A stretch of 64,000 nucleotides of DNA from Acidimicrobiales bacterium (GTDB lineage Bacteria > Actinomycetota > Acidimicrobiia > Acidimicrobiales > Iamiaceae), in NCBI GenBank assembly GCA_030447445.1, contig JAUJOW010000009.1, positions 1-64,000 of the forward strand, written 5' to 3'. The notes under the pieces are model-generated. The model made no database searches and was not told the origin of the DNA. It saw nothing but the letters and a program-made list of their open reading frames with translations. Positions within the stretch are counted from its first letter, which is position 1. The number at the start of each line of letters is the position of its first letter. Below, one piece after another: positions 34,836-46,072 of the stretch. Both the position numbers and the translations under genes were made by a program.

Positions 34836-35135
34836 GCGCGGCACTGAAGTAGGGAGCCGACAGCCTCGGGCCGGCTTGAGCCCGTCGTCGGCGGGGTGGC
34901 TACACTGAGGCCCTCCCCAGCGAGTCGGTGACCGATCGCTGCGGAGCACCTGACGGGGTTTCCCTCCACGCCGATCGGCTGCGCACCGTCTGCGCGCGCC
35001 GGGACCCCGAGGCTCGCACCCCGATTGAAGCGAGGTAGCACCGTTGAGTGAGCCGCAGGCGAGCGAACCAGAAGGAACGGCGGCGGTTCGCCCCGTAGGG
35101 GCGAGGCTCATCGGCGCGGACCGAAGGGAGCACCG
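34836..35135 (+). other. rho leader region (300 bp)
   Basis: There is no full-size gene. It holds a candidate sigma70-type promoter (34876-34906), a GC-rich stretch, and from 35044 a 31-codon mini-ORF coinciding with a structured repeat that ends at the rho start codon. Long leaders are common for rho genes, which are often autoregulated. Confidence 0.5.
34876..34906 (+). promoter_or_regulatory. rho: Candidate promoter of rho (TTGAGC-N19-TACACT)
   Basis: TTGAGC (34876-34881) and TACACT (34901-34906), separated by 19 nt, make a reasonable -35/-10 pair. This would give a leader of about 220 nt before the rho ATG. Confidence 0.4.
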
Positions 35136-35139
35136 ATGA
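35044..35139 (+). repeat. SEP-type structured repeat / 31-codon mini-ORF ending at the rho start
   Basis: From a TTG at 35044 the frame reads LSEPQASEPEGTAAV through RREHR, and its TGA overlaps the rho ATG as ATGA. At DNA level GAGCCGCAGGCGAGCGAACC is shared with the junctions at 45433 and 45561. A CGCCCC-GTA-GGGGCG hairpin (35089-35103) follows. Then CTCATCGG (35107-35114) pairs perfectly with CCGATGAG (35133-35140), placing the rho ATG inside a stem. Confidence 0.5.
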
Positions 35140-36926
35140 GTGGCTTCGACCGATCGCTGCTGGAACGCAAGGAGCGCGACGAGCTGAGCCAGATCGCCGA
35201 GCAGCTCGGCCAGAAGCCGCCGTCGCGGGCCAAGAAGGCCGACATCGTCGAGCTGATCCTCCGGCTGGCCGGCGTGACGGTCGACGGCGGCGAGGACGCC
35301 GCCCCGACCAGCTCCGGGTCAGGGGAGCGGGCGGCGGGCAACGGCGCCGCCACCGGGGACGGGGGAGTCGACCGCGGCAGCGTCGACGCCAACGGGTCGG
35401 CAGCGTCACCGGCCACACCCGCCGGGGCGACCGACGGTGCCACCGGCGGTGCCAGCGCACCGCCTCCGAGCGAGGAGCCCGATGGTGCCGACGGCGGGGC
35501 GGAGGGGGCCCAACGGGACCGGAGCGGCCACGGTGGCCAGGACGGCGGGTCGAGCGGGGACGGACGGGTCGGTCAGCCCGGTGTCGGCGTCCGTCCCGAC
35601 GAGGCCGGTGATCGGTTGGGGCGGGATGACGGGGTCCCGTCGGGGCAGGGCACCGGGCCGGACCCGTCCAACCGGGGCGACGAGGGGGAGCCCGGCAACC
35701 GCCGCCGGCGCCGTCGCGGTCGTGACCGCCCCGGTGGTGGCCAGCAACAGCAGCAGGGCGACGATTCGATGCTGGGCGAGCCCATCGACGTGGAGGGCCT
35801 TCTCGATCTCCGTGACGAGGGCTACGGGTTCCTCCGGCTGAAGGGGTACCTGCCGAGCAAGGACGACGTGTACGTCTCGGTCAAGCAGGTGCGCCAGTTC
35901 GCGCTGCGCAAGGGCGACCGTCTGGCCGGCAAGAGTCGGGCGGCGGCTCGCAACGAGAAGAACCCGGCCCTCCTCCAGATCGACCTGGTGAACGGCGTCG
36001 ACCCGGAGAAGAACCGCAATCGTCCCCGGTTCGAGGACCTCACCCCCTTGTTCCCCGACGAACGGCTCAACCTCGAACTGGCCGACGACCCCGGCAACAT
36101 GACCGCCCGCATCATCGACCTGCTGGCCCCCATCGGGAAGGGCCAGCGCGGCCTCATCGTGTCGCCCCCCAAAGCCGGCAAGACCACGGTGATGAAGCAG
36201 ATCGCCCGCTCCATCGAGACCAACAACCCCGAGTGCCACCTCATCGTGCTGTTGGTCGACGAGCGCCCCGAAGAGGTCACCGACATGCGACGGTGGCTCA
36301 TCCGGGGCGAGGTGGCGGCGTCGACCTTCGACCGACCCTCCGACGAGCACACCACCGTGGCCGAGCTCGTGATCGACCGGGCCAAGCGCATGGTCGAGGA
36401 CGGCAAGGACGTCGTCATCATCCTCGACGGCATCACCCGCCTGGCCCGGGCCTACAACCTGGCCGCGCCGGCCACCGGGCGCATCATGTCGGGCGGCATC
36501 GACGCCGGCGCGCTCTACCCGCCCAAGAAGTTCTTCGGCGCCGCCCGCAACGTCGAGGAGGGCGGGTCGCTGACCATCCTCGCTACCGCCCTCGTCGAGA
36601 CGAACTCCCGCATGGACGAGCACATCTTCGAGGAGTTCAAGGGCACCGGGAACATGGAGCTCAAGCTCGACCGGCGCCTCGCCGACCGGCGCATCTACCC
36701 GGCCATCGACGTGGAGTCGTCCTCCACCCGCCACGAGGAGCTGCTGTTCGACCGCAAGGAGCTCCAGCAGGTGTGGAAGCTGCGCCGGGTCCTGTCGGGG
36801 CTGCGGGGCGACGAGCGGGACAGCAACGCCGCCGGACTGGAGCTGCTCATCGACCGGATGAGGACTTTCAAGTCCAACGAGGCGTTCCTTTCCGAGATCG
36901 CCAAGGCGCCCACCGTCGCCGGTTGA
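35136..36926 (+). CDS. rho: Transcription termination factor Rho
   Basis: A 596-residue hexameric RNA helicase/ATPase that terminates transcription. The N-terminal helical domain (residues 1-45, [20 protein letters not shown]) is followed by a ~165-residue disordered Gly/Asp/Ser-rich insert ending in a basic [10 protein letters not shown] patch, as in other high-GC actinobacteria. The RNA-binding cold-shock-like domain starts at [19 protein letters not shown]. The ATPase has Walker A PPKAGKTT near residue 346, Walker [16 protein letters not shown], the Q/R-loop residues ([19 protein letters not shown]) and [11 protein letters not shown]. The ATG overlaps a mini-ORF and may be sequestered in a hairpin. 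Confidence 0.96.
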
Positions 36927-37022
36927 CGGGAATAGCCCTACGTTGAACGGATCGGATGACCGATCGGCTGATCGTTCCGTCCCCACCGATCCACCGACCC
37001 GAACTGCGACACTGGAGCCATC

Positions 37023-37235
37023 ATGAAGGCCGACATCCACCCCGAGTACATCGAGACGCAGGTGCGGTGCTCGTGCGGCAACTCGTTCACCACCCGCTCG
37101 ACCGTGCCGTCGCTCCCCGTCGAGCTGTGCAACGAGTGCCACCCCTTCTACACCGGCAAGCAGAAGCTGGTGGACACCGGGGGCCGCATCGACCGCTTCG
37201 AGCGCCGTTACGGGCGCCGCAAGGGCCAGAAGTAG
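37023..37235 (+). CDS. rpmE: 50S ribosomal protein L31 (zinc-binding type)
   Basis: A 70-residue L31 that helps bridge the ribosomal subunits. It begins [20 protein letters not shown] and keeps the four-cysteine zinc site (Cys16, Cys18, Cys36, Cys39), so it is the C+ form expressed when zinc is sufficient. The body [20 protein letters not shown] is strongly conserved. rho-rpmE adjacency is typical of Gram-positive and actinobacterial genomes. Confidence 0.97.
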
Positions 37236-37310
37236 CGACCCTCCTGCGTCCTGGGGCAGGAATCGGTCCCCGGGAGCCGGCCATCTGCGCCAGAACGTGA
37301 TGACGACGCG

Positions 37311-38330
37311 ATGACCCAGATCGACCGCGCCACGCTGGTGGCGGTCAAGCTGCGGGCGCTGGTACGGGACCACTGGGCCGCGACCGAAGGGGAGCCGGGG
37401 CCGTTCCCCGGCGGCGCCACCCTCCGGATGGGGGCGACCGGCTGGGTTCTCATCGAGCAGCGGGCCGAGCGACGCCTCGGGGGGGCGTTGGCCTGGGCCC
37501 GCCAGCACGCGGTGGCCGACCTCCACCTCCTCGTCGACCAGCCTGCCCCGGCCGCCGCCGTGGTCGCCCGTCGAGCGGCCCAGTTCACCACCCCTCCTCA
37601 CGTGTGGCAGGTCGAGGACCGCTCGCTGGTGGCGGTCGACCCGGCGCCGCCGCCCACCCCGAGCGTGCCCCCGCCGACCGCCGAGCTGCTCGGCGCCATG
37701 CTGGCCGACGCCGGTCTCGAGGTGGTCGTGGAGGGCGGCGAGCTGGTCGGCGAGGTGCTCGGTCTCGAGGTGGCACGGGTGCGACCGGCCGACGACACCG
37801 GTGGCGACCACGGCGCCGACGTCCACCTCGAGGTCGGCGTCGGACGCTTCGATCGGGAGGCGTTCGCCATGATGCATCCCGAGCTCGGCGACGCCGCCGC
37901 CCTCGACGTCGTCGTCGCCGTCGTGCGCGGCCACCGCCGGCCGGGTGCTCCCCACCACCAGCTCAACCAGCTCGTGCCCGAGCGGTGGTTGCGGGCCGAG
38001 GTCGTCGCCGACCCGGCCACGGTGGGCGCCGCCACCCTGCGGCCGGTGGAGTCGGCCGTCCCCCGCCGAGACCTGACCGAGCGGGTGCCGGCCACCGCCG
38101 TGGGCACCGACGGCGACGGTCGTCCCATCGTCGTCACCTGCTCGGTCGGCGTCGACCTCGATCTCGTCCCCACCGCCGCCGACGACCGGCTGGCCCATGC
38201 TCCCGGCGCCCGACTGGTGCTGGCTGTGCCCCCGCGCGATGCCGTGCCGGTGACCGAGGCCCTCGCCGGTGCGTTGGCCGAGCCGGCCACGGTGATGACC
38301 GTCGACGGCGGTTGGGGCGGCGAGCGATGA
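37311..38330 (+). CDS. Uncharacterised protein between rpmE and prfA
   Basis: A 339-residue soluble protein I do not recognise. It has two unlike halves: residues 1-95 (ATLVAVKLRALVRDHWAATE, GATGWVLIEQRAERRLGG), and residues 120-339 with repeated acidic beta-rich segments and a final VMTVDGGWGGER. The first half has an arrangement of hydrophobic strand and helix with Asp/Glu, but no catalytic signature is evident. Its stop overlaps the prfA ATG as ATGA, so it is co-translated with release factor 1. It has typical GC-rich codon use and protein-like composition, so it is probably real. Confidence 0.7.
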   Translation: MTQIDRATLVAVKLRALVRDHWAATEGEPGPFPGGATLRMGATGWVLIEQRAERRLGGALAWARQHAVADLHLLVDQPAPAAAVVARRAAQFTTPPHVWQVEDRSLVAVDPAPPPTPSVPPPTAELLGAMLADAGLEVVVEGGELVGEVLGLEVARVRPADDTGGDHGADVHLEVGVGRFDREAFAMMHPELGDAAALDVVVAVVRGHRRPGAPHHQLNQLVPERWLRAEVVADPATVGAATLRPVESAVPRRDLTERVPATAVGTDGDGRPIVVTCSVGVDLDLVPTAADDRLAHAPGARLVLAVPPRDAVPVTEALAGALAEPATVMTVDGGWGGER

Positions 38331-39394
38331 TGGACGGTCGTTTCGACGAGCTGGAGCGCGAGCTGGCCGACGTGGAGGGTCGGCTGGCCGACCCCGCCGT
38401 GTTCGCCGACCAGGACCGCTACGCCGAGCTGGCCCGTCGACACAAGGAGCTCGACGCCCTCGTCACCCGGATCGGCGAGGTGCGACGACGCACCGGTGAC
38501 CTGGAGGCGGCTCGGGAGATGTTCGCCGAGTCCTCGGGCGACGACCGGGAGTCCATGCGCCGGGAGGTCGATGCCGCGGAGGCCGACCTCGCCCGCCTCG
38601 CCCAGGAGCTGCGCCTGCTGCTCCTGCCCCGGGATCCCAACGCCGACCGCAACGTCATCGTGGAGATCCGCGGCGCCGAGGGGGGCGAGGAGGCCAACCT
38701 GTTCGCCCGCGACCTGTTCGAGATGTACCGGGCCTGGGCCGGGCGGATGGGGTGGACGTTCGAGGTGCTCGGCTCGGAGGGGTCCGAGATGGGAGGGTAC
38801 AAGGAGATCACCTTCCTGGTGAAGGGCGATGGGGTGTGGACCCGCATGAAGCACGAGGGCGGCCCGCACCGGGTCCAGCGGGTCCCGGTCACCGAGTCGC
38901 AGGGCCGCATCCACACCTCCTCGGCCACTGTCACCGTCCTCCCCGAGGCGGCCGAGGTCGACGTGTCGATCGACCCCGGCGACCTCCAGGTCGACGTGTA
39001 CCGCTCGTCGGGGCCGGGCGGCCAGTCGGTGAACACCACCGACTCGGCGGTGCGGGTCACCCACAAGCCGACCGGGCTGGTGGTGGCCATGCAGGACGAG
39101 AAGAGCCAGATCCAGAACCGAGCCAAGGCCCTGCGGGTCCTGCGGTCCCGGCTCTTGAAGCTCGAGCAGGACCGCCAGGCGGCCGAGGCCTCCGAGGCCC
39201 GCCGGGACCAGGTGGGCGGGGGCGGCCGATCCGAGAAGATCCGCACCTACAACTTCAAGGAGAACCGGCTCTCCGACCACCGCATCGGCCTCACGCTGTA
39301 CAAGCTCGACAGGGTGCTGGCGGGTGAGCTCGAGGACGTGAGCGACGCCCTGGTGGCCGACGAGCAGACCCGCCGGCTGACCGAAGTGGACTGA
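38327..39394 (+). CDS. prfA: Peptide chain release factor 1
   Basis: A 355-residue RF1 that recognises UAA and UAG and triggers peptide release. The GGQ motif lies in SSGPGGQSVNTTDSAVR, preceded by HRVQRVPVTESQGRIHTSSA carrying the PVT tripeptide anticodon of RF1. The C-terminal RIGLTLYKLDRVLAGEL is standard. The ATG at 38327 (MMDGRFDEL) overlaps the stop of the uncharacterised gene. prmC, which methylates the GGQ glutamine, follows 10 bp later. Confidence 0.96.
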   Translation: MMDGRFDELERELADVEGRLADPAVFADQDRYAELARRHKELDALVTRIGEVRRRTGDLEAAREMFAESSGDDRESMRREVDAAEADLARLAQELRLLLLPRDPNADRNVIVEIRGAEGGEEANLFARDLFEMYRAWAGRMGWTFEVLGSEGSEMGGYKEITFLVKGDGVWTRMKHEGGPHRVQRVPVTESQGRIHTSSATVTVLPEAAEVDVSIDPGDLQVDVYRSSGPGGQSVNTTDSAVRVTHKPTGLVVAMQDEKSQIQNRAKALRVLRSRLLKLEQDRQAAEASEARRDQVGGGGRSEKIRTYNFKENRLSDHRIGLTLYKLDRVLAGELEDVSDALVADEQTRRLTEVD

Positions 39395-39404
39395 TTCGCA
39401 CCGC

Positions 39405-40277
39405 GTGGGCACGATCTCGTGGCGGCAGCTCCTGGGTGAGGCCGGCCACCGCCTGGGCGGGCCGGGCTCACCGTCCCTGTCACCGGCCGTCGATGCCCGG
39501 CGCATCGTCGAGGAGGCGTCGGGCTGGGAGGGCTCCGAGCTGCAGCGCCGGCTCGACGCCCCGGCCACCGAGCGGGGCGTGGCCCGCTTCGACCACATGC
39601 TGGGCCGGCGCCTGGCCGGTGAGCCGCTCCAGTACGTGCTCGGCCGGTGGGGCTTCCGGACCCTCGACCTGGCTGTCGACAGCCGGGCCCTCATCCCCCG
39701 ACCCGAGACCGAGCGGGTGGTCGAGGAGGCCCTCCGCGAGCTCGACCGGAGCGGGAAGCGCACGGCCCGGGTGGTCGACCTCGGGACGGGGTCGGGAGCC
39801 ATCGCGCTCAGCGTGGCCGCCGAGCGGGAGGGCGTCGAGGTGTGGGCCACCGACGTCTCGACCGACGCCCTGGCCCTGGCCCGCGCCAACCTGGCCGGAC
39901 TTGCCGGCCGGAGCGCCACCCGGGTCCGCCTGGCCGAGGGGGACTGGTTTGCCGCCCTGCCCCCGGCGTTGGCCGGCACCGTCGATCTGGTCGTGGCCAA
40001 CCCGCCCTACGTCGCCGCCGGCGAGCCGCTCCCGGCCGAGGTGGCCGACTGGGAGCCGACCCGAGCCCTGGTGGCCGGGCCCACCGGGCTGGAGGCCATC
40101 GCCGTGATCGTGACCGAGTCGCCCCGCTGGTTGGCCGCCGGCGGTGCCGTGGTCGTCGAGATCGGCGACACCCAGGCGGCTGCGGCGGCCGGCCTGGCCC
40201 GGGCCGCCGGGCTCTCCGCCGTCGAGGTCCGCCCCGACCTCGCCCGCCGCCCCCGCATCCTCGTAGCCCACCGCTGA
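39405..40277 (+). CDS. prmC: Release factor glutamine methyltransferase
   Basis: A 290-residue HemK/PrmC that N5-methylates the glutamine of the GGQ motif of release factors. The N-terminal helical domain (ISWRQLLGEAGHRLGGPG) precedes a methyltransferase with motif I VVDLGTGSGAIALSVA, IPRPETERVVEEAL and the diagnostic catalytic NPPY in VVANPPYVAAGEPL near residue 205. It starts with a GTG at 39405. Pairing with prfA is the usual arrangement. Confidence 0.94.
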   Translation: MGTISWRQLLGEAGHRLGGPGSPSLSPAVDARRIVEEASGWEGSELQRRLDAPATERGVARFDHMLGRRLAGEPLQYVLGRWGFRTLDLAVDSRALIPRPETERVVEEALRELDRSGKRTARVVDLGTGSGAIALSVAAEREGVEVWATDVSTDALALARANLAGLAGRSATRVRLAEGDWFAALPPALAGTVDLVVANPPYVAAGEPLPAEVADWEPTRALVAGPTGLEAIAVIVTESPRWLAAGGAVVVEIGDTQAAAAAGLARAAGLSAVEVRPDLARRPRILVAHR

Positions 40278-40302
40278 AGGCCGCCGCTGACCAGTCGCTG
40301 AT

Positions 40303-41694
40303 TCAGCGAACCCCGGCGCCCTGGGCCCTCTCCCCCCGAGGGATCCAGACCTGCTCGGGCTCGCCCGCCAGCACGTGGTCGACGAACTCGACTCCCTGCA
40401 TCGTCGAGTGGTCCATGTTGCCGATCTCGTAGAGCCATGCGCCGAACCGGCCGCGGGACCAGATGTGCTGCTCCCGCAGCCACGGCTGGATCGTGCCGAG
40501 GGCGGCGTCGCGACCCACCGACGGCACCGGGTAGGTCATGTCCGGCGAGCAGCGCCACGTGGTCACCACGCGGGACCGGTCGCAGTCCTCCATCAGCCCG
40601 GTGGCCACGAGCCCGTCGATCACCCGCTCGACGATCGTGCCCTCGTCCTCGGGCTTGAACTCCGAGCGCGACGTCTCGGTGAGGAGCAGGGTCTGGTCCG
40701 GCCGGGCCGTCATGTACGGCGAGTAGTTCGACAGGTACGTGACCCGGTAGAAGGGCACGTCCGGCTCCGGGAAGTAGATCCAGTTCTTCGAGCTGTTCGC
40801 CGGCCGGTCGATACCCACGCCGACGATGTGGCTGCCGCTCCAGACGAGGTCGCCGGCGGCCCGGCGCACTGGCTCGGGCACGCCCTGGAGGCACCCGACG
40901 AGCCGGTTGAGCGGCATCGTCGACAGGAGCACGTCGTAGGGCCATGACCGCCCGTCGTCGGTGTGCACGACCTTGGCGGCGGGGTCGATGGACACGACGC
41001 TGGTCTTCAGGTGGAGGTTGTGCTCGACGTAGCGGCGCAGGCCCTCATAGAGGAAGCCGGTGCCGCCCCGCAGGGGGTAGCGGAACGAGTTGTTCGGTCC
41101 CCACGAGACCTGGTCCTCGCCGAGGATCACGTTGCGGAGGATCGTCTCCACGTCCACCACCGACACGCGCTCACCTATCCATATCTCGTTCATGAGCTCG
41201 GCCGGGGTGGCCCAGACCTTGAAGTTGTAGGGGATCATGAAGTGCTGGGCGATGCCCTCACCGAACACGGCGTGGACCCACTCCTCGAAGTTGGAGAACG
41301 GCCGCTTCTCCTGTTGCGCCCGGATGAGGCCGTTCACGCATGCGAACACCGTCTCCGGCTCGAGGTCACGGATGTTGTTCTGGAACGGGTACGGGATGAA
41401 CCGGTCCTCCATCCAGACCCACGCCTCCCGCTGCAGCTCTGTGTAGTCGCCGCCCATCAGCTTGTCGACCAGCTCGTCGTAGTACTCGTAGTGGCTGAAC
41501 ATCACGTGGCCACCGATGTCGTAGGTGAAGCCGGCCTCGTCGGTGAACGATGTCGCCAGGCCACCCACGTAGTCGTTCGCCTCCAGGAGCGCCCAGTCGT
41601 CGTGGCCGAGCTCCTGCAGGCGGTAGCCGGCGCCGAGCCCGGTCGGACCGGCACCGACGATGACGATCGTCGGGCCATCCGACGACAGGGGCAT
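40303..41694 (-). CDS. FAD-dependent UDP-galactopyranose-mutase-like/amine-oxidase-like protein
   Basis: A 463-residue flavoprotein with the Rossmann motif TIVIVGAGPTGLGAGYRLQE near residues 8-27 and FAD-contacting GGLATSF. Its YDIGGHVMFSHYEYYDEL and the middle YPFQNNI and RYPLRGGTGFLYEGL resemble the UGM/protoporphyrinogen-oxidase-like oxidoreductases seen in glycan clusters (NAD(P)-binding protein, COG1232). It may rearrange or oxidise a nucleotide sugar. Start at the ATG at 41694, next to the first strand. It faces prmC and is flanked on the other side by tsaC. Exact reaction unknown. Confidence 0.75.
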   Translation of the reverse strand: MPLSSDGPTIVIVGAGPTGLGAGYRLQELGHDDWALLEANDYVGGLATSFTDEAGFTYDIGGHVMFSHYEYYDELVDKLMGGDYTELQREAWVWMEDRFIPYPFQNNIRDLEPETVFACVNGLIRAQQEKRPFSNFEEWVHAVFGEGIAQHFMIPYNFKVWATPAELMNEIWIGERVSVVDVETILRNVILGEDQVSWGPNNSFRYPLRGGTGFLYEGLRRYVEHNLHLKTSVVSIDPAAKVVHTDDGRSWPYDVLLSTMPLNRLVGCLQGVPEPVRRAAGDLVWSGSHIVGVGIDRPANSSKNWIYFPEPDVPFYRVTYLSNYSPYMTARPDQTLLLTETSRSEFKPEDEGTIVERVIDGLVATGLMEDCDRSRVVTTWRCSPDMTYPVPSVGRDAALGTIQPWLREQHIWSRGRFGAWLYEIGNMDHSTMQGVEFVDHVLAGEPEQVWIPRGERAQGAGVR

Positions 41695-41861
41695 GGTGTC
41701 GAGCCCGGCGGGGTCGACGGCCCGCCCGCCTCCGGCTCGGCTGTGGCCCATCACTCTCCTGGAAGTCGCGTCACGGCTCCCGGCGGGTGCCAGACCTGGC
41801 CTGTGGTCAGCCGGAGTGGCGCTACCCGGCGGTTCCATCGGTGAAACTCGTGCCGTCACCG

Positions 41862-41867
41862 TAACCT
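41862..41867 (+). promoter_or_regulatory. -10 element TAACCT, leaderless promoter of tsaC
   Basis: TAACCT ends 7 nt before the GTG at 41875. Confidence 0.45.
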
Positions 41868-41874
41868 CGCCGTC

Positions 41875-42489
41875 GTGGCCGGCGGAGCAGGTGCGGAGAT
41901 GGTGGCCGAGGCGGCCGAGGCACTCCTCGCCGGCGGGGTGGTCGTCGTCCCCACCGACACCGTCTACGGCGTGGCCGCGCTGCCGAGCGTGCCCGGGGCC
42001 ACCGATCGGCTCTTCGAGCTGAAAGCTCGCGACCGAACCCAGCCCCTGGCCGTGCTCGTCGCCGACACCGCTCAGGCCCGCTCCCTCGTGGCGCCGCCCT
42101 CGGAGATCGTGGAGCGGTGGATGACCCGTTGCTGGCCCGGCCCCTTGACCCTCGTGCTGCCTCGGGCCCCCGGTGAGGCTCGGAACCTCGAGCTGGGTGG
42201 CGATCCCGCCACTGTCGGCGTGCGCTGCCCGGCCCACAACCTCGTCCGCCGGCTGGCCGCCATGGTGGGACCGGTGGCCACCACCAGCGCCAACCGACAC
42301 GGCGAGGCCACCCCACCGACGGCGGCCGGGGCGGCGGCGGCGCTGGCCGGGACGATCGACGTGGTGGTCGACGGGGGACCCTGTGCCGGGGTGCCGTCGA
42401 CGGTGGTCGACGCCACCGGTTCCCGGTGGCACATACGCCGGGAGGGCGCCATCGGCCGTCGGGCTCTGGCCGCCGCCGGCCGCCCGTGA
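41875..42489 (+). CDS. tsaC: L-threonylcarbamoyladenylate synthase (Sua5/YrdC/TsaC)
   Basis: A 204-residue YrdC-domain enzyme making threonylcarbamoyl-AMP for tRNA t6A37 modification. VVVPTDTVYGVAALPS, the nucleotide-binding KARDRTQPLAVLV, TRCWPGPLTLVLPR, the TSANRHGE motif and STVVDATG are all present. No C-terminal Sua5 domain follows, so it is the short form. The leaderless GTG at 41875 fits the -10 spacing. The prfA-prmC-tsaC order is common in actinobacteria, here separated by the flavoprotein gene. Confidence 0.94.
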   Translation: MAGGAGAEMVAEAAEALLAGGVVVVPTDTVYGVAALPSVPGATDRLFELKARDRTQPLAVLVADTAQARSLVAPPSEIVERWMTRCWPGPLTLVLPRAPGEARNLELGGDPATVGVRCPAHNLVRRLAAMVGPVATTSANRHGEATPPTAAGAAAALAGTIDVVVDGGPCAGVPSTVVDATGSRWHIRREGAIGRRALAAAGRP

Positions 42490-42595
42490 GCGTTCCCGGC
42501 CGCGGGAGCCGGTTGGCGTCGGCCATCCGCGCATGGTGGCCTGGGCGGGAGGGGCCGCCCGGCCCCCTCCGCTGATCCGAGGACGTCGCCCTCCC

Positions 42596-42772
42596 ATGAC
42601 CGCAGTTCGCTTCGGAGCCGCGCTCATCGTCCTCGGCGCCGCCCTCATCGCCGCGGGGGCGCTCCACTGGAGCAACGACGACCTGCTCCACATCGGCGGT
42701 GTCGGCTCCATCGTCTTCGGCGCCGTGGGCGTGTGCATCGCCACCGAGACCCGGGACAACGGCCGCCGCTGA
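42596..42772 (+). CDS. Small membrane protein (two transmembrane segments)
   Basis: A 58-residue hydrophobic protein starting MTAVRFGAALIVLGAALIAA, with a loop HWSNDDLLHIGG and a second helix VGSIVFGAVGVCIATE. No family recognised. There is a plausible ATG at 42596 but no good Shine-Dalgarno. It could be a real small membrane peptide or an open stretch between tsaC and hsp20. Confidence 0.4.
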   Translation: MTAVRFGAALIVLGAALIAAGALHWSNDDLLHIGGVGSIVFGAVGVCIATETRDNGRR

Positions 42773-42848
42773 ACCTGTCGCGGAGTCATGGAGGTAGTCG
42801 GCGTGGGGTAGGACGGGCTGGTCACCCGACCGCCGAAGGGAGTGACCA

Positions 42849-43223
42849 GTGAGCGAGCTCGAGCCGTCAGTGGGTGATTGCCACGTCCCGGTGAACATGT
42901 GGGAGACGGGGGGCTCGCTCGTGGTCGTCGCTCCCATGCCGGGGGTCATGGCCGAGGACGTGCAGGTCGCCCTCGAGGGCGGAACGCTCACGCTGCGGGC
43001 CGCGGAGCGCAGTCGAGCCCAGAAGCGGGACTACCACCTCCATGAGTGGGGCTACGGGCCCTACGAGCGCACCCTCGAGCTGCCCGAGGGGTTCCGGGGT
43101 TCGGTCGCCGCCACCCTGGGCAACGGCCAGCTCGCCGTTCGGGTGGGCAAGAGCGGCACCGGCGAGGACCAGCAGAGCCAGACCGTCGTCCCCTCCACCG
43201 CTGGCACCACCGACAACCTCTGA
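42849..43223 (+). CDS. Hsp20/alpha-crystallin small heat-shock protein
   Basis: A 124-residue small heat-shock protein that holds unfolded proteins. The alpha-crystallin domain spans ~18-105: SLVVVAPMPGVMAEDVQVALEGGTLTLRA, YHLHEWGYGPYERTLELPEGF and the terminal strand ATLGNGQLAVRVGK. The usual GVLxxxIPK-like tail is replaced by a short hydrophilic end. GTG at 42849. The upstream ~75 bp contains no obvious HrcA or HspR palindrome. Confidence 0.85.
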   Translation: MSELEPSVGDCHVPVNMWETGGSLVVVAPMPGVMAEDVQVALEGGTLTLRAAERSRAQKRDYHLHEWGYGPYERTLELPEGFRGSVAATLGNGQLAVRVGKSGTGEDQQSQTVVPSTAGTTDNL

Positions 43224-43329
43224 CGCCCGCTCACCGTGCACGTCCACCGACCCCACTCACCGCCCTAGGCGCGACCGCATTCGACGGACCCCTTGACACA
43301 ACTCCGGGAACCGGATGCCACGGCACGGT

Positions 43330-43350
43330 CAGTCTGGTCACGTCAGACTG
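43330..43350 (-). terminator. Hairpin spanning the thiolase stop codon
   Basis: CAGTCTG-GTCACGT-CAGACTG is a perfect 7-bp stem with a 7-nt loop that includes the thiolase TGA on the minus strand. No T-tract follows, so it could be a weak terminator or an mRNA-stability hairpin. Confidence 0.4.
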
Positions 43351-44831
43351 AGGGTGCCGTCGGGTCGGAGGTGGCCGGGCCGGCCGATCACCTCGGTGCG
43401 CTCGGTGGCATCGAGCACGTCGGGCTCGTCGTTGGTCCCCCAGGCCCGCCGCCCGTCGGGCAGGCGCAAGGCGTAGAACCCGTGTTCGGCGGCGCCGGCG
43501 CGGTCGTGCATGACCGTGGCCCCCTCCACCGTCACCGGGCCGTCCCACTCCTCGCACAGCTCGACCCAGCCGGCGGCGTCCACCTCGGCCTGGGGGGCGG
43601 CGTGGCGGAACGATCCCGCCGGGGGAGGCGACGTCGAGTACACGCCGAAGGCGTGCTTGGTGAGGAACCCACCGTTGGCGGTGCAGAGCCCGACGGCGCC
43701 GGCATCGGCCCGCAACACGGCGACCATGGTGGCGATGGCGTGCATCACGTAGTCGTTCCACGGGCCCCCGGCGAAGCTGAGCCCGCCGGTGACCGTCAGT
43801 GGGCGGTCGAGGCCGAGGCCCAGCTCGGCGGCGGCGACCTGCACCGCCGACGGGAAGCACGAGTAAAGGTCGATGTGGGCGACGTCGTCGACGCCCACCC
43901 CGGCGAGGGCCAGCGCCCTCGCCCCGGCCACGGCGATGGCCGGGGAGGCGCACAGGCTCGGGCGGTTGGACACGAATGGCGTGTCCCTGGCGTCGGTGCC
44001 CGCCCACGGGAACACCCAGCGGTCGCTCGGCACGCCCAGCGCCCGGGCCCGCCCGACCGAGCACATGATCACCGCGGCGCCCTGCTCCACGTTGTTGTTC
44101 GAGTTCATCAGCTTCGGGTACGGGAACCCGATCATGCGGTTGTCGGGGCCGACCTCCCGCAGCTCCTCGGCGGTGTAGCGACGTTGGATCCAGGCGTGAG
44201 GGTTGGCGGCGGCCACCGCGCTGAACCCGGCCCACAGCTCGGACAGGTGGACGAGGTGGTCGGCCGGTGTCCGCCCCGCCGCCGCCCGCAGCGCGCTCTC
44301 GAAGATGGGGTAGTGCTGCACGGGCATCATGAGGCCCCGGGCCGTCTCCCCAGGGTGGAACATCGGGGTGTCGTCACCCAGGGTGACGGTGGGGACGAGG
44401 TGGTCGGGCTGGACGCTCCAGTCGGGACGCTCCCCGACAGCCCGCAGGGCCATCCGCGTGCGCCAGGCCTCGGCCCCGCACAGCAGCGCCAGGTCGGTCT
44501 GCCCGGCGGCGATGTCGAGCGCCACCCGGTTCACCAGCGCCTGCGGGTAGTTGCCGCCGGCCACGGTGTGCAGCGTTCGCCGGGGGGAGGCGCCGAGGCG
44601 CGACGCCACCAGTGCCGCCGGGTCCCGGTAGCGCCACGACAACACGTTGACCACGCCAACCGTGTCGGCCTGGCCGAGCACATCGGTGCTGGCGCCGCTG
44701 TCCTTCCCGGCCCGGCGGAGGGCCTCGGCCATGAGGTCCACGGGCTCGAGCGGATCCTCACCCCGGTCGACGCGCTGGTTCACCTGGCCGCCGCCGACGA
44801 GCACGGGGCGGCGGGGGTCGAGCGCCGTCAT
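43338..44831 (-). CDS. Thiolase-like acetyl-CoA acetyltransferase family protein
   Basis: A 497-residue thiolase-superfamily protein of the SCP-x/acetyl-CoA acetyltransferase-like type common in actinobacteria. The N-terminus is PRRPVLVGGGQVNQR, with TLHTVAGGNYPQALVNRVA in the position of the nucleophile segment (no clear cysteine there) and ALLCGAEAWRTRMAL nearby. C-terminal hallmarks are HIDLYSCFPSAVQ, TGGLSFAGGPWNDYVMHA and GLCTANGGFLTKHAFGVYST, with His and Cys-like residues typical of the family. It may cleave or form a beta-ketoacyl-CoA; the substrate is unknown. It is divergent from the phosphatase gene. Confidence 0.8.
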   Translation of the reverse strand: MTALDPRRPVLVGGGQVNQRVDRGEDPLEPVDLMAEALRRAGKDSGASTDVLGQADTVGVVNVLSWRYRDPAALVASRLGASPRRTLHTVAGGNYPQALVNRVALDIAAGQTDLALLCGAEAWRTRMALRAVGERPDWSVQPDHLVPTVTLGDDTPMFHPGETARGLMMPVQHYPIFESALRAAAGRTPADHLVHLSELWAGFSAVAAANPHAWIQRRYTAEELREVGPDNRMIGFPYPKLMNSNNNVEQGAAVIMCSVGRARALGVPSDRWVFPWAGTDARDTPFVSNRPSLCASPAIAVAGARALALAGVGVDDVAHIDLYSCFPSAVQVAAAELGLGLDRPLTVTGGLSFAGGPWNDYVMHAIATMVAVLRADAGAVGLCTANGGFLTKHAFGVYSTSPPPAGSFRHAAPQAEVDAAGWVELCEEWDGPVTVEGATVMHDRAGAAEHGFYALRLPDGRRAWGTNDEPDVLDATERTEVIGRPGHLRPDGTLSLT

Positions 44832-44856
44832 GGACGGCCAAGCTAGGGGTCGCCGT

Positions 44857-44862
44857 TACAAT
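44857..44862 (+). promoter_or_regulatory. -10 element TACAAT upstream of the LMW phosphatase
   Basis: TACAAT, close to the TATAAT consensus, ends 7 nt before position 44870, the first codon of the conserved phosphatase sequence. By the rule seen elsewhere in the window, the transcript would start at that codon. Confidence 0.5.
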
Positions 44863-44869
44863 CCGGCCC

Positions 44870-45436
44870 ATCGAGATCCTCTTCCTGTGCACCGGCAACA
44901 TCTGCCGCTCCCCGATGGCCGAGGCTCTCCTTCGCCACCGCATGGAGCAACTGGGCGTGGTGGCCACCGTGTACTCGGCCGGCCTCCTGTACGACGACGC
45001 GCCGCCCTCGGCCGGTGCGGTGGAGGTCCTCGAGCGTCGGGGTGTCGACCTCAGCGCGCACCGCAGCCGCATCATGCGGCCCGACGAGGTGGCCACGGCC
45101 GACCTCGTGCTGGCCATGGCCCGCATGCACCTGCGGGAGGCCGTGGTCATGGTCCCGAGGCGGTTCGGCCACATCTTCACGCTGAAGGAGCTCGTGCGCC
45201 GGGCCGAGCAGGTCGGCCCCCGTGTCGAGGAGTCCTTCGAGGACTGGCTCGCCCGAGTCGGGTTCGGTCGCCGCACGGTGGAGTTCCTCGGCGAGTCACC
45301 CGAGGACGACATCGCCGACCCGATCGGCCAGTCGGTGGCCACCTACGACCGCACCGCCGCCGAGCTCGACGACCTCGTGGCCCGCCTCTGCGCCCTCGTG
45401 TGGAGCCGGGCTGCTCGGGAGGTGCGCCACGCATGA
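44870..45436 (+). CDS. Low-molecular-weight protein-tyrosine phosphatase, apparent ATC start
   Basis: A ~188-residue LMW-PTP that dephosphorylates phosphotyrosine or phosphoarginine-like substrates. The P-loop LFLCTGNICRSPMAEALL has Cys7 and Arg13, and the general-acid DPIGQSVATYDRTAAELD is at the C-terminus. No ATG, GTG or TTG precedes the P-loop in frame; the conserved sequence begins at ATC (44870), which lies 7 nt after a TACAAT box, the typical leaderless spacing. A start at the later ATG (44915) would remove the P-loop. Either AUC initiates or there is a base error. Its stop overlaps a mini-ORF leading to rpiB. Confidence 0.8.
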   Translation: MEILFLCTGNICRSPMAEALLRHRMEQLGVVATVYSAGLLYDDAPPSAGAVEVLERRGVDLSAHRSRIMRPDEVATADLVLAMARMHLREAVVMVPRRFGHIFTLKELVRRAEQVGPRVEESFEDWLARVGFGRRTVEFLGESPEDDIADPIGQSVATYDRTAAELDDLVARLCALVWSRAAREVRHA

Positions 45437-45564
45437 GCGAGCCGGCAGGGCGAGCGAACCAGACAGAACGGGTGGTCTCGCCGCGAAGCGGCGAGCGCTC
45501 ATTGGTGCCACCTCGATCTGACGAGACGGGGCGTGGACTCACAAGGCGGAGGGTGCACCAATGA
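45433..45564 (+). CDS. 43-residue mini-ORF within the SEP-type repeat (phosphatase-rpiB junction)
   Basis: ATG at 45433 overlaps the phosphatase stop as ATGA. The frame reads MSEPAGRANQTERVVSPRSG, and on to TRRRVHQ, and ends by overlapping the next ATG at 45561. It is Arg-rich and low in hydrophobics. At DNA level it resembles the element before rho: a conserved core, a CTCGCCGC-GAA-GCGGCGAG hairpin (45477-45495), then GCTCATTGGTGC (45497-45508) paired to GCACCAATGAGC (45555-45566). The two encoded peptides differ in frame, so the DNA or RNA structure rather than the peptide is conserved. Confidence 0.4.
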   Translation: MSEPAGRANQTERVVSPRSGERSLVPPRSDETGRGLTRRRVHQ

Positions 45565-45605
45565 GCGAGCCGCAGGCGAGCGAAGCAGACGGTGTGCGCC
45601 GGTGA
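45561..45605 (+). other. 14-residue mini-[17 protein letters not shown] before rpiB
   Basis: ATG at 45561 overlaps the stop of the 43-residue frame, and its TGA overlaps the rpiB GTG at 45602 as GTGA. Its first 30 nt repeat the SEP core (25 of 27 bases match the copy before rho). Its ATG lies in the right arm of the 12-bp inverted repeat. Confidence 0.4.
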
Positions 45606-46072
45606 GGGTGGCCATCGGGGGCGACCACGCCGGCTTCGCGCTCAAGAGCCACCTCGTGGGGGTGCTGGCCGGCCTGGCCCACGACGTGATCGACCTCGGC
45701 ACCGACAGCGAGGAGCCCGTCGACTACCCCAGGTACTGCGCCGCCGTGGGCCGAGCCGTGGTGGGCGGCCACGCCGACCGGGGCATCGTGCTCGGCGGCA
45801 GCGGGCAGGGGGAGCAGCTGTCCGCCAACAAGGTGCGGGGCGTGCGGGCGGCCCTGTGCAACGACCTCTACACCGCCCGCCTGTCCCGAGCCCACAACGA
45901 CGCCAACGTGTTGTCGATGGGCGGGCGGGTCGTCGGCGCCGGCCTCGCCACCGAGATCGTCGAGCTGTGGCTCAGCACCGACTTCGACGGTGGCCGCCAC
46001 CAGCGCCGTCTCGACCAGATCGCCGAGCTGGAGTCGCGCTTCGGCGAGAGCCCGGAAGGAAGTGCACGCTGA
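45602..46072 (+). CDS. rpiB: Ribose-5-phosphate isomerase B
   Basis: A 156-residue RpiB that interconverts ribulose-5-phosphate and ribose-5-phosphate. It begins [18 protein letters not shown], with [34 protein letters not shown] and [16 protein letters not shown]. The enterobacterial active-site cysteine is absent (GGSGQGE); actinobacterial RpiB enzymes use an acidic residue there instead, so this is normal. The GTG start is reached through two overlapping mini-ORFs. glyA follows with a one-base TGATG overlap. Confidence 0.94.

Follow-up and report, generated by a model that had tools for sequence, protein, structure and literature searches.

How do four reading frames come to lie end to end in one operon, each stop codon overlapping the next start, and what is the DNA that carries the two smallest of them? 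This question is raised by positions 45433-45605 of the window (the whole 64,000-nt stretch of Acidimicrobiales DNA that was analysed), which lie between a phosphatase gene and rpiB. An earlier note, made from the letters alone, had described two mini-ORFs, a hairpin and an inverted repeat there, and had proposed a dispersed element that couples or controls translation. We think that these positions probably hold a mobile mini-element resembling the mycobacterial interspersed repetitive units (MIRUs), which are known mainly as typing markers; the element would preserve translational coupling between its neighbours and hide a start codon until a ribosome passes. We put the probability of this reading, drawn from sequence comparison, at about 0.7.

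Anatomy of the junction

The upstream gene (44870..45436, start codon putative; this and all following features are on the forward strand) is a member of the low-molecular-weight phosphotyrosine phosphatase family (Pfam LMWPc, 2.4e-28), and its stop TGA (45434-45436, within the ATGA at 45433-45436) is also the left end of the element. A complete copy of a long type, measuring 128 nt from left TGA to right TGA and homologous to copies at gatC/gatA and elsewhere, constitutes mini-ORF 1 of 43 codons (45433..45564). It is followed by mini-ORF 2 of 14 codons (45561..45605), which ends in GTGA, and by rpiB (45602..46072; NCBIfam rpiB subfamily, 1e-56), whose GTG start at 45602 overlaps the mini-ORF 2 stop. 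Phosphatase, mini-ORF 1, mini-ORF 2 and rpiB are joined through ATGA, ATGA and GTGA overlaps, in that order, and all coordinates that the earlier note gave for these frames and joints hold. Its treatment of the second mini-ORF as a separate part does not: mini-ORF 2 is the element once more, in tandem and 3'-truncated to 41 nt of core and tail, like other short copies, such that 45433-45605 consists of one complete and one truncated copy.

Within the complete copy, the conserved 5' core TGAGCGAGCC...GGCGAGCGAA (45434..45458) is a recurring pattern, and the claim that a core is shared with a site before rho is borne out at 35045-35067. The GAA-loop hairpin that had been reported is also present: hairpin 1, CTCGCCGC-GAA-GCGGCGAG, lies at 45477..45495 with a GNA triloop, and in copy L003 it reads CTCGCTGC-GGA-GCAGCGAG, a compensatory change relative to the window copy. 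The inverted repeat described as a perfect 12 bp, with the second ATG in its right arm, exists but is larger than was thought; its arms (45496-45514 and 45549-45567) are 19 nt long and 89% complementary. We refer to this inverted repeat as the start-codon stem, as the ATG at 45561, most of an SD-like GGAGG and the bases next to the ATG fall inside its right arm. RNA folding of the window copy is stronger than that of shuffles (z -3.2). Separately, a 30-nt stretch of core (45563-45592) has 97-100% identity to plasmids of Sinorhizobium medicae and meliloti, with no other plasmid match; chance, convergence or transfer might each explain it.

Where rho begins, the window contains a second full copy, of a 92-nt type. 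Its mini-ORF runs from the TTG at 35044 to the TGA at 35139, the arms of its start-codon stem (35106..35141) lie at 35106-35117 and 35130-35141, as indicated by covariation and by RNA folding (z -2.8), and an SD-like AGGT precedes the TTG. Transcription termination factor rho may itself depend on translation of this leader frame.

Copies, empty sites and relatives

Is the element dispersed, as the earlier note supposed? Further copies in the genome, whose absence had been named as refuting, are plentiful: blastn places the element at about 20 sites (E<1e-3), and the core pattern, with up to three mismatches, has 27 matches in this genome vs 1 for a reversed control pattern. About a dozen of the copies are full, truncated ones being more numerous. 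Nine full copies are of the 92-nt type, including the rho copy and a tandem pair; the longer type is represented by the window copy, by gatC/gatA, by G000:C9:651 and, with an insert, by G000:C21:34779; and further short copies, such as L060 before pgk, have an RTGA end that lies on the start of a gene. All full copies are oriented towards the downstream gene (sense), and copies occupy either an RTGA stop-start overlap or a start codon; the rho copy, L042 and L047 are of the latter sort, with no upstream gene within coupling distance. In L022, L007 and L139, only the core is present; it is read in frame with the gene downstream, which thereby gains an N-terminal extension, MSEPxAS..., a route to new protein starts.

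Relatives show what such junctions look like when they are empty. In about 20 of them, most of those that could be read, argB and argD meet in a bare [AG]TGA overlap; in the window's genome, the element occupies exactly this TGA, and the ATGAGCGCTCCC that follows matches the native argD start (GTGAGCGCCCCG in L202). The phosphatase/rpiB junction is likewise a bare ATGA in L070. These bare junctions imply that the flanks are native and that the repeat was inserted. As regards a target-site duplication, TGA is present at both ends of the element, and the base that precedes it is often unequal, with G on the left and A on the right in 15 of 36 copies. The same junctions have been used in different genomes, i.e. 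those at sucD, sufD/sufC, a 165-aa family and rapZ (names from sequence inspection), and at sucD and sufD/sufC the element types differ between genomes. Before one gene (start ...DLERYE.EIELQLYKEY), two kinds of element are found in genomes of two families (L304 of G174, L025 of the window's genome, G000), a repeated use of one junction.

The element has relatives in several families of Acidimicrobiia and cousins elsewhere in Actinomycetota. Of 296 genomes in the class, 3 have the strict core; with two mismatches allowed, the core is present in three of the family's nine genera, the window's genome being counted. The covariance-model search of relatives that the earlier note had suggested, with a model built from 19 copies, gave matches for 13 of the 395 genomes in the class, some of the weaker ones (in G079 and G090) being related repeats away from stop-start overlaps. 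Of 397 genomes across the phylum, 12 match a looser core, TGAGCGAGC-loop-GCGAGCGAA, some of them not with this kind of element; control matches are zero. A scan of public genomes gave 34 stretches, every one in MAGs named Acidimicrobiia, Acidimicrobiales or unclassified Actinomycetota; the loci of G301, from the window's family, equal those of 'Acidimicrobiales bacterium YX2bin34'. A genome of the same family (G110) holds a copy, L097, that bridges both core variants by joining the short core to the long type (122 nt), and G174 holds 11 copies of 74 nt each. A core search of viral contigs found none, and carriage of the element by viruses was rejected on that ground.

Other repeats were encountered along the way. 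Those of G079 (L308-L312) have a similar core, GAGCCGAGCCGATAGGCGAGGCGACCA.TGAGCACAG, and a left end that follows TTAG or CTAG, not NTGA; they are possibly a cousin with another target. In G384, G541 and G373 (L105-L107, L110-L112, L118, L119), tandem repeats of about 62 nt have a GAGCGAGC..GCGAGCGAA centre flanked by long G-rich and C-rich arms, and are not obviously located at stop-start overlaps.

Open frames, covarying stems and competing explanations

What does the element preserve as it spreads? One answer is length. All eight length classes are 3n+2, such that the mini-ORF spans from upstream stop to downstream start: 36 of 40 copies in the 68-78-nt class, for which the right end was set independently of frame, obey the rule, as do the 92, 95, 122, 125 and 128-nt classes; L066, L140 and L146 break the frame. 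Stops interrupt the mini-ORF frame in 2 of 54 copies and the other two frames in 17 and 7. With NTGA at both ends, a length of 3n+2 and no in-frame stop, the upstream stop overlaps the mini-ORF and the mini-ORF stop overlaps the next start.

The second answer is structure. Compensatory changes in the start-codon stem occur in three separate alignments, and thus covariation, the lack of which had also been named as refuting, is found. In the MAG AC_25, nine gap-free copies have 8 of 17 pairs changed on both sides, with 94.8% of cells pairing and a covariation score of 0.355, compared to 0.132 when shuffled and at most 0.109 when slid. The stem scores 0.143 vs 0.072 in the 77-nt class. The alignment of own-genome copies scores 0.160 vs 0.097 and lies above shuffles on only three of five measures; in this last set, the start codon's first base notably covaries, forming U-A in six copies and C-G in three. 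An all-against-all scan of 1656 position tests, the p-values of which are only guides given that the copies are related, returned predicted stem pairs as its two best. The stem is broken in L017 and L159.

The pairing does not end with the element but carries on past it, into the host gene as far as codon 2. Arm base -1 forms Watson-Crick pairs with +5 in 32 of 36 copies (22 expected) and arm base -2 with +6 in 22 (16.5 expected); among the copies of this arm-match test, there is no signal past +7, i.e. from +8 on. Both base matching and duplex energies indicate that an arm fits its own downstream gene better than the genes of other copies, outer duplexes being not significant in the long-hairpin type and weak in the other type. 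TGAC sites have GTCA arms in 5/5 cases, TGAG sites nearly always have CTCA arms, and one TGAA site has a TTCA arm. This match to codon 2 reflects either selection after insertion or guided insertion. In the latter case, the internal arm would be a guide that pairs with the target RTGANN, two host-gene bases included, selects the insertion site and later becomes the lock on the start codon. We regard the guide role as improbable; if it holds, base pairing would be how stop-start junctions are recognised, and the pairs so formed would go on to lock the start codon.

How might such an element work? A small mobile repeat would have entered the ATGA stop-start overlap of phosphatase and rpiB, with the truncated copy lying in tandem behind it. 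A ribosome ending the upstream gene would reinitiate on the mini-ORF, melt the start-codon stem as it translates, terminate on RTGA and reinitiate on the next gene; absent that ribosome, the stem, formed by the internal arm and the start region at the element's own right end, would keep the downstream start closed. Downstream translation would in this way be made dependent on upstream translation. We infer ribosome passage, reinitiation and locking from established models of translational coupling (PMC12548453), whose mechanisms we assume here, and from an engineered device, synTCE (PMC11602170). With frame and overlaps kept and reinitiation coupled, insertion would be nearly neutral for the operon. 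Several observations count against this reading: the copies at a start codon with no upstream gene in reach, those with a broken stem or frame, and the own-genome alignment, which beats its shuffles on three measures out of five.

Must the element regulate anything? It could be a purely selfish repeat with no regulatory effect, in which RTGA ends are due to the integration machinery or to purging, the stem is a DNA hairpin for mobilisation and the open frame avoids polarity. Nearly all copies have GNA-triloop hairpins, as such a repeat might, and the junctions with an element (argD, gatA, rpiB, rho, sucD, sufC and rapZ are among them) share no pathway and no conserved class of regulated gene. 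Among the stem mismatches, G.U and A.C (16 vs 11 types) do not clearly differ, and roles as RNA and as single-stranded DNA are both compatible with them. Against this account, the arm matches host-gene bases past the RTGA, a match that would be superfluous for a DNA hairpin confined to the element, and element-bearing genomes are without a Y1 transposase. Among the 18 genomes searched for this mobilising enzyme (PF01797), the only one found belongs to a genome of the same family without detected strict-core copies; Y1/RAYT mobilisation was rejected for this reason, and no mobilising enzyme for the element was found, which also counts against the coupling reading of a mobile repeat. On balance, we find a purely selfish repeat unlikely, and prefer the coupling element.

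A regulated switch, in which hairpin 1 and the start-codon stem are alternatives that answer a ligand, a protein or a stalled ribosome by switching the downstream gene on or off, would draw on the 77-nt class, where covariation within one alignment supports both of these mutually exclusive structures. In the window's own type, however, the two hairpins are not mutually exclusive; copy L157 has lost hairpin 1 yet kept the start stem; the junctions have no common pathway; and Rfam 15 gives no match up to E=1 in 34900-45700. We consider a switch very improbable.

Could the mini-ORFs encode functional small proteins? The core does give them a constant N-terminus, MSEPxASE, but the remainder differs between types, and L182 tolerates a frameshifted middle created by two cancelling indels. 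Diversity at codon positions 1, 2 and 3 is 0.22, 0.19 and 0.13 in A4 and 0.18, 0.16 and 0.16 in A3, so that in A4 the third position varies least and in A3 it varies no more than the others. This pattern suggests that what counts is an open frame and not the peptide; we rejected a functional mini-peptide, which has scarcely any chance of being right, and agree with the earlier note that structure is kept where peptide is not. Finally, short frames are common in GC-rich DNA, but chance tiling of such frames is refuted by the existence of further copies, and the recurrent core, the 3n+2 rule, the empty sites and the covariation all speak against it.

Comparison with known systems

The earlier note knew of no description of this element, and we found none in the open-access literature (most subscription journals being outside its scope). 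The kind itself is already known, and in this respect the word undescribed went too far: MIRUs (Supply et al. 1997, as cited in PMC12548453; also described in PMC4213456) insert at start codons with their ORF coupled at -4 spacing (PMC12548453). They are repeats without dyad symmetry, with small ORFs that overlap their neighbours and run in the same direction (PMC4473831), and their lengths of 77 and 53 bp are also 3n+2. Our element is likewise a short dispersed intergenic repeat, at times in tandem; its small ORF overlaps the adjoining ORFs at both ends and runs in their direction, and its empty sites indicate insertion into a stop-start coupling site. It differs in having several covarying hairpins, one of them over the downstream start codon, and in being found in Acidimicrobiia. 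We call it MIRU-like because the organisation is alike, dyad symmetry is present and the comparison is by description only; what is new is a structured, covarying counterpart of MIRUs in uncultured Acidimicrobiia.

Towards the MIRUs, the closest relatives are probably the unstructured repeats of G542, a genome of the same phylum but another family. These 77- and 80-nt cousins share a core (TGAGCGAGC-loop-GCGAGCG), RTGA ends, 3n+2 length and tandem copies, but have another 3' half, in which inspection revealed no start-codon stem; a search of plasmids and phages gave no match to a G542 cousin. REP/BIME repeats with their RAYT (Y1) enzymes are also short, dispersed and palindromic, but they are extragenic and in both orientations, whereas copies of the element lie in one orientation, include start and stop signals and reside in genomes with no Y1 transposase. 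Unlike the ends of MITEs, the left end TGAGCGAGCC and the right end CACCRRTGA are not inverted copies, the inverted repeat being internal to the right half.

In anatomy and proposed working, the element is like synTCE (PMC11602170), in which a hairpin over the RBS/start is combined with an overlapping stop-start and opened by a ribosome on the upstream frame; synTCE is engineered and is no relative. The element would be nature's counterpart to what synthetic biology has built by design, and the same junction, with the element in one genome and bare in another, offers a natural experiment on translational coupling.
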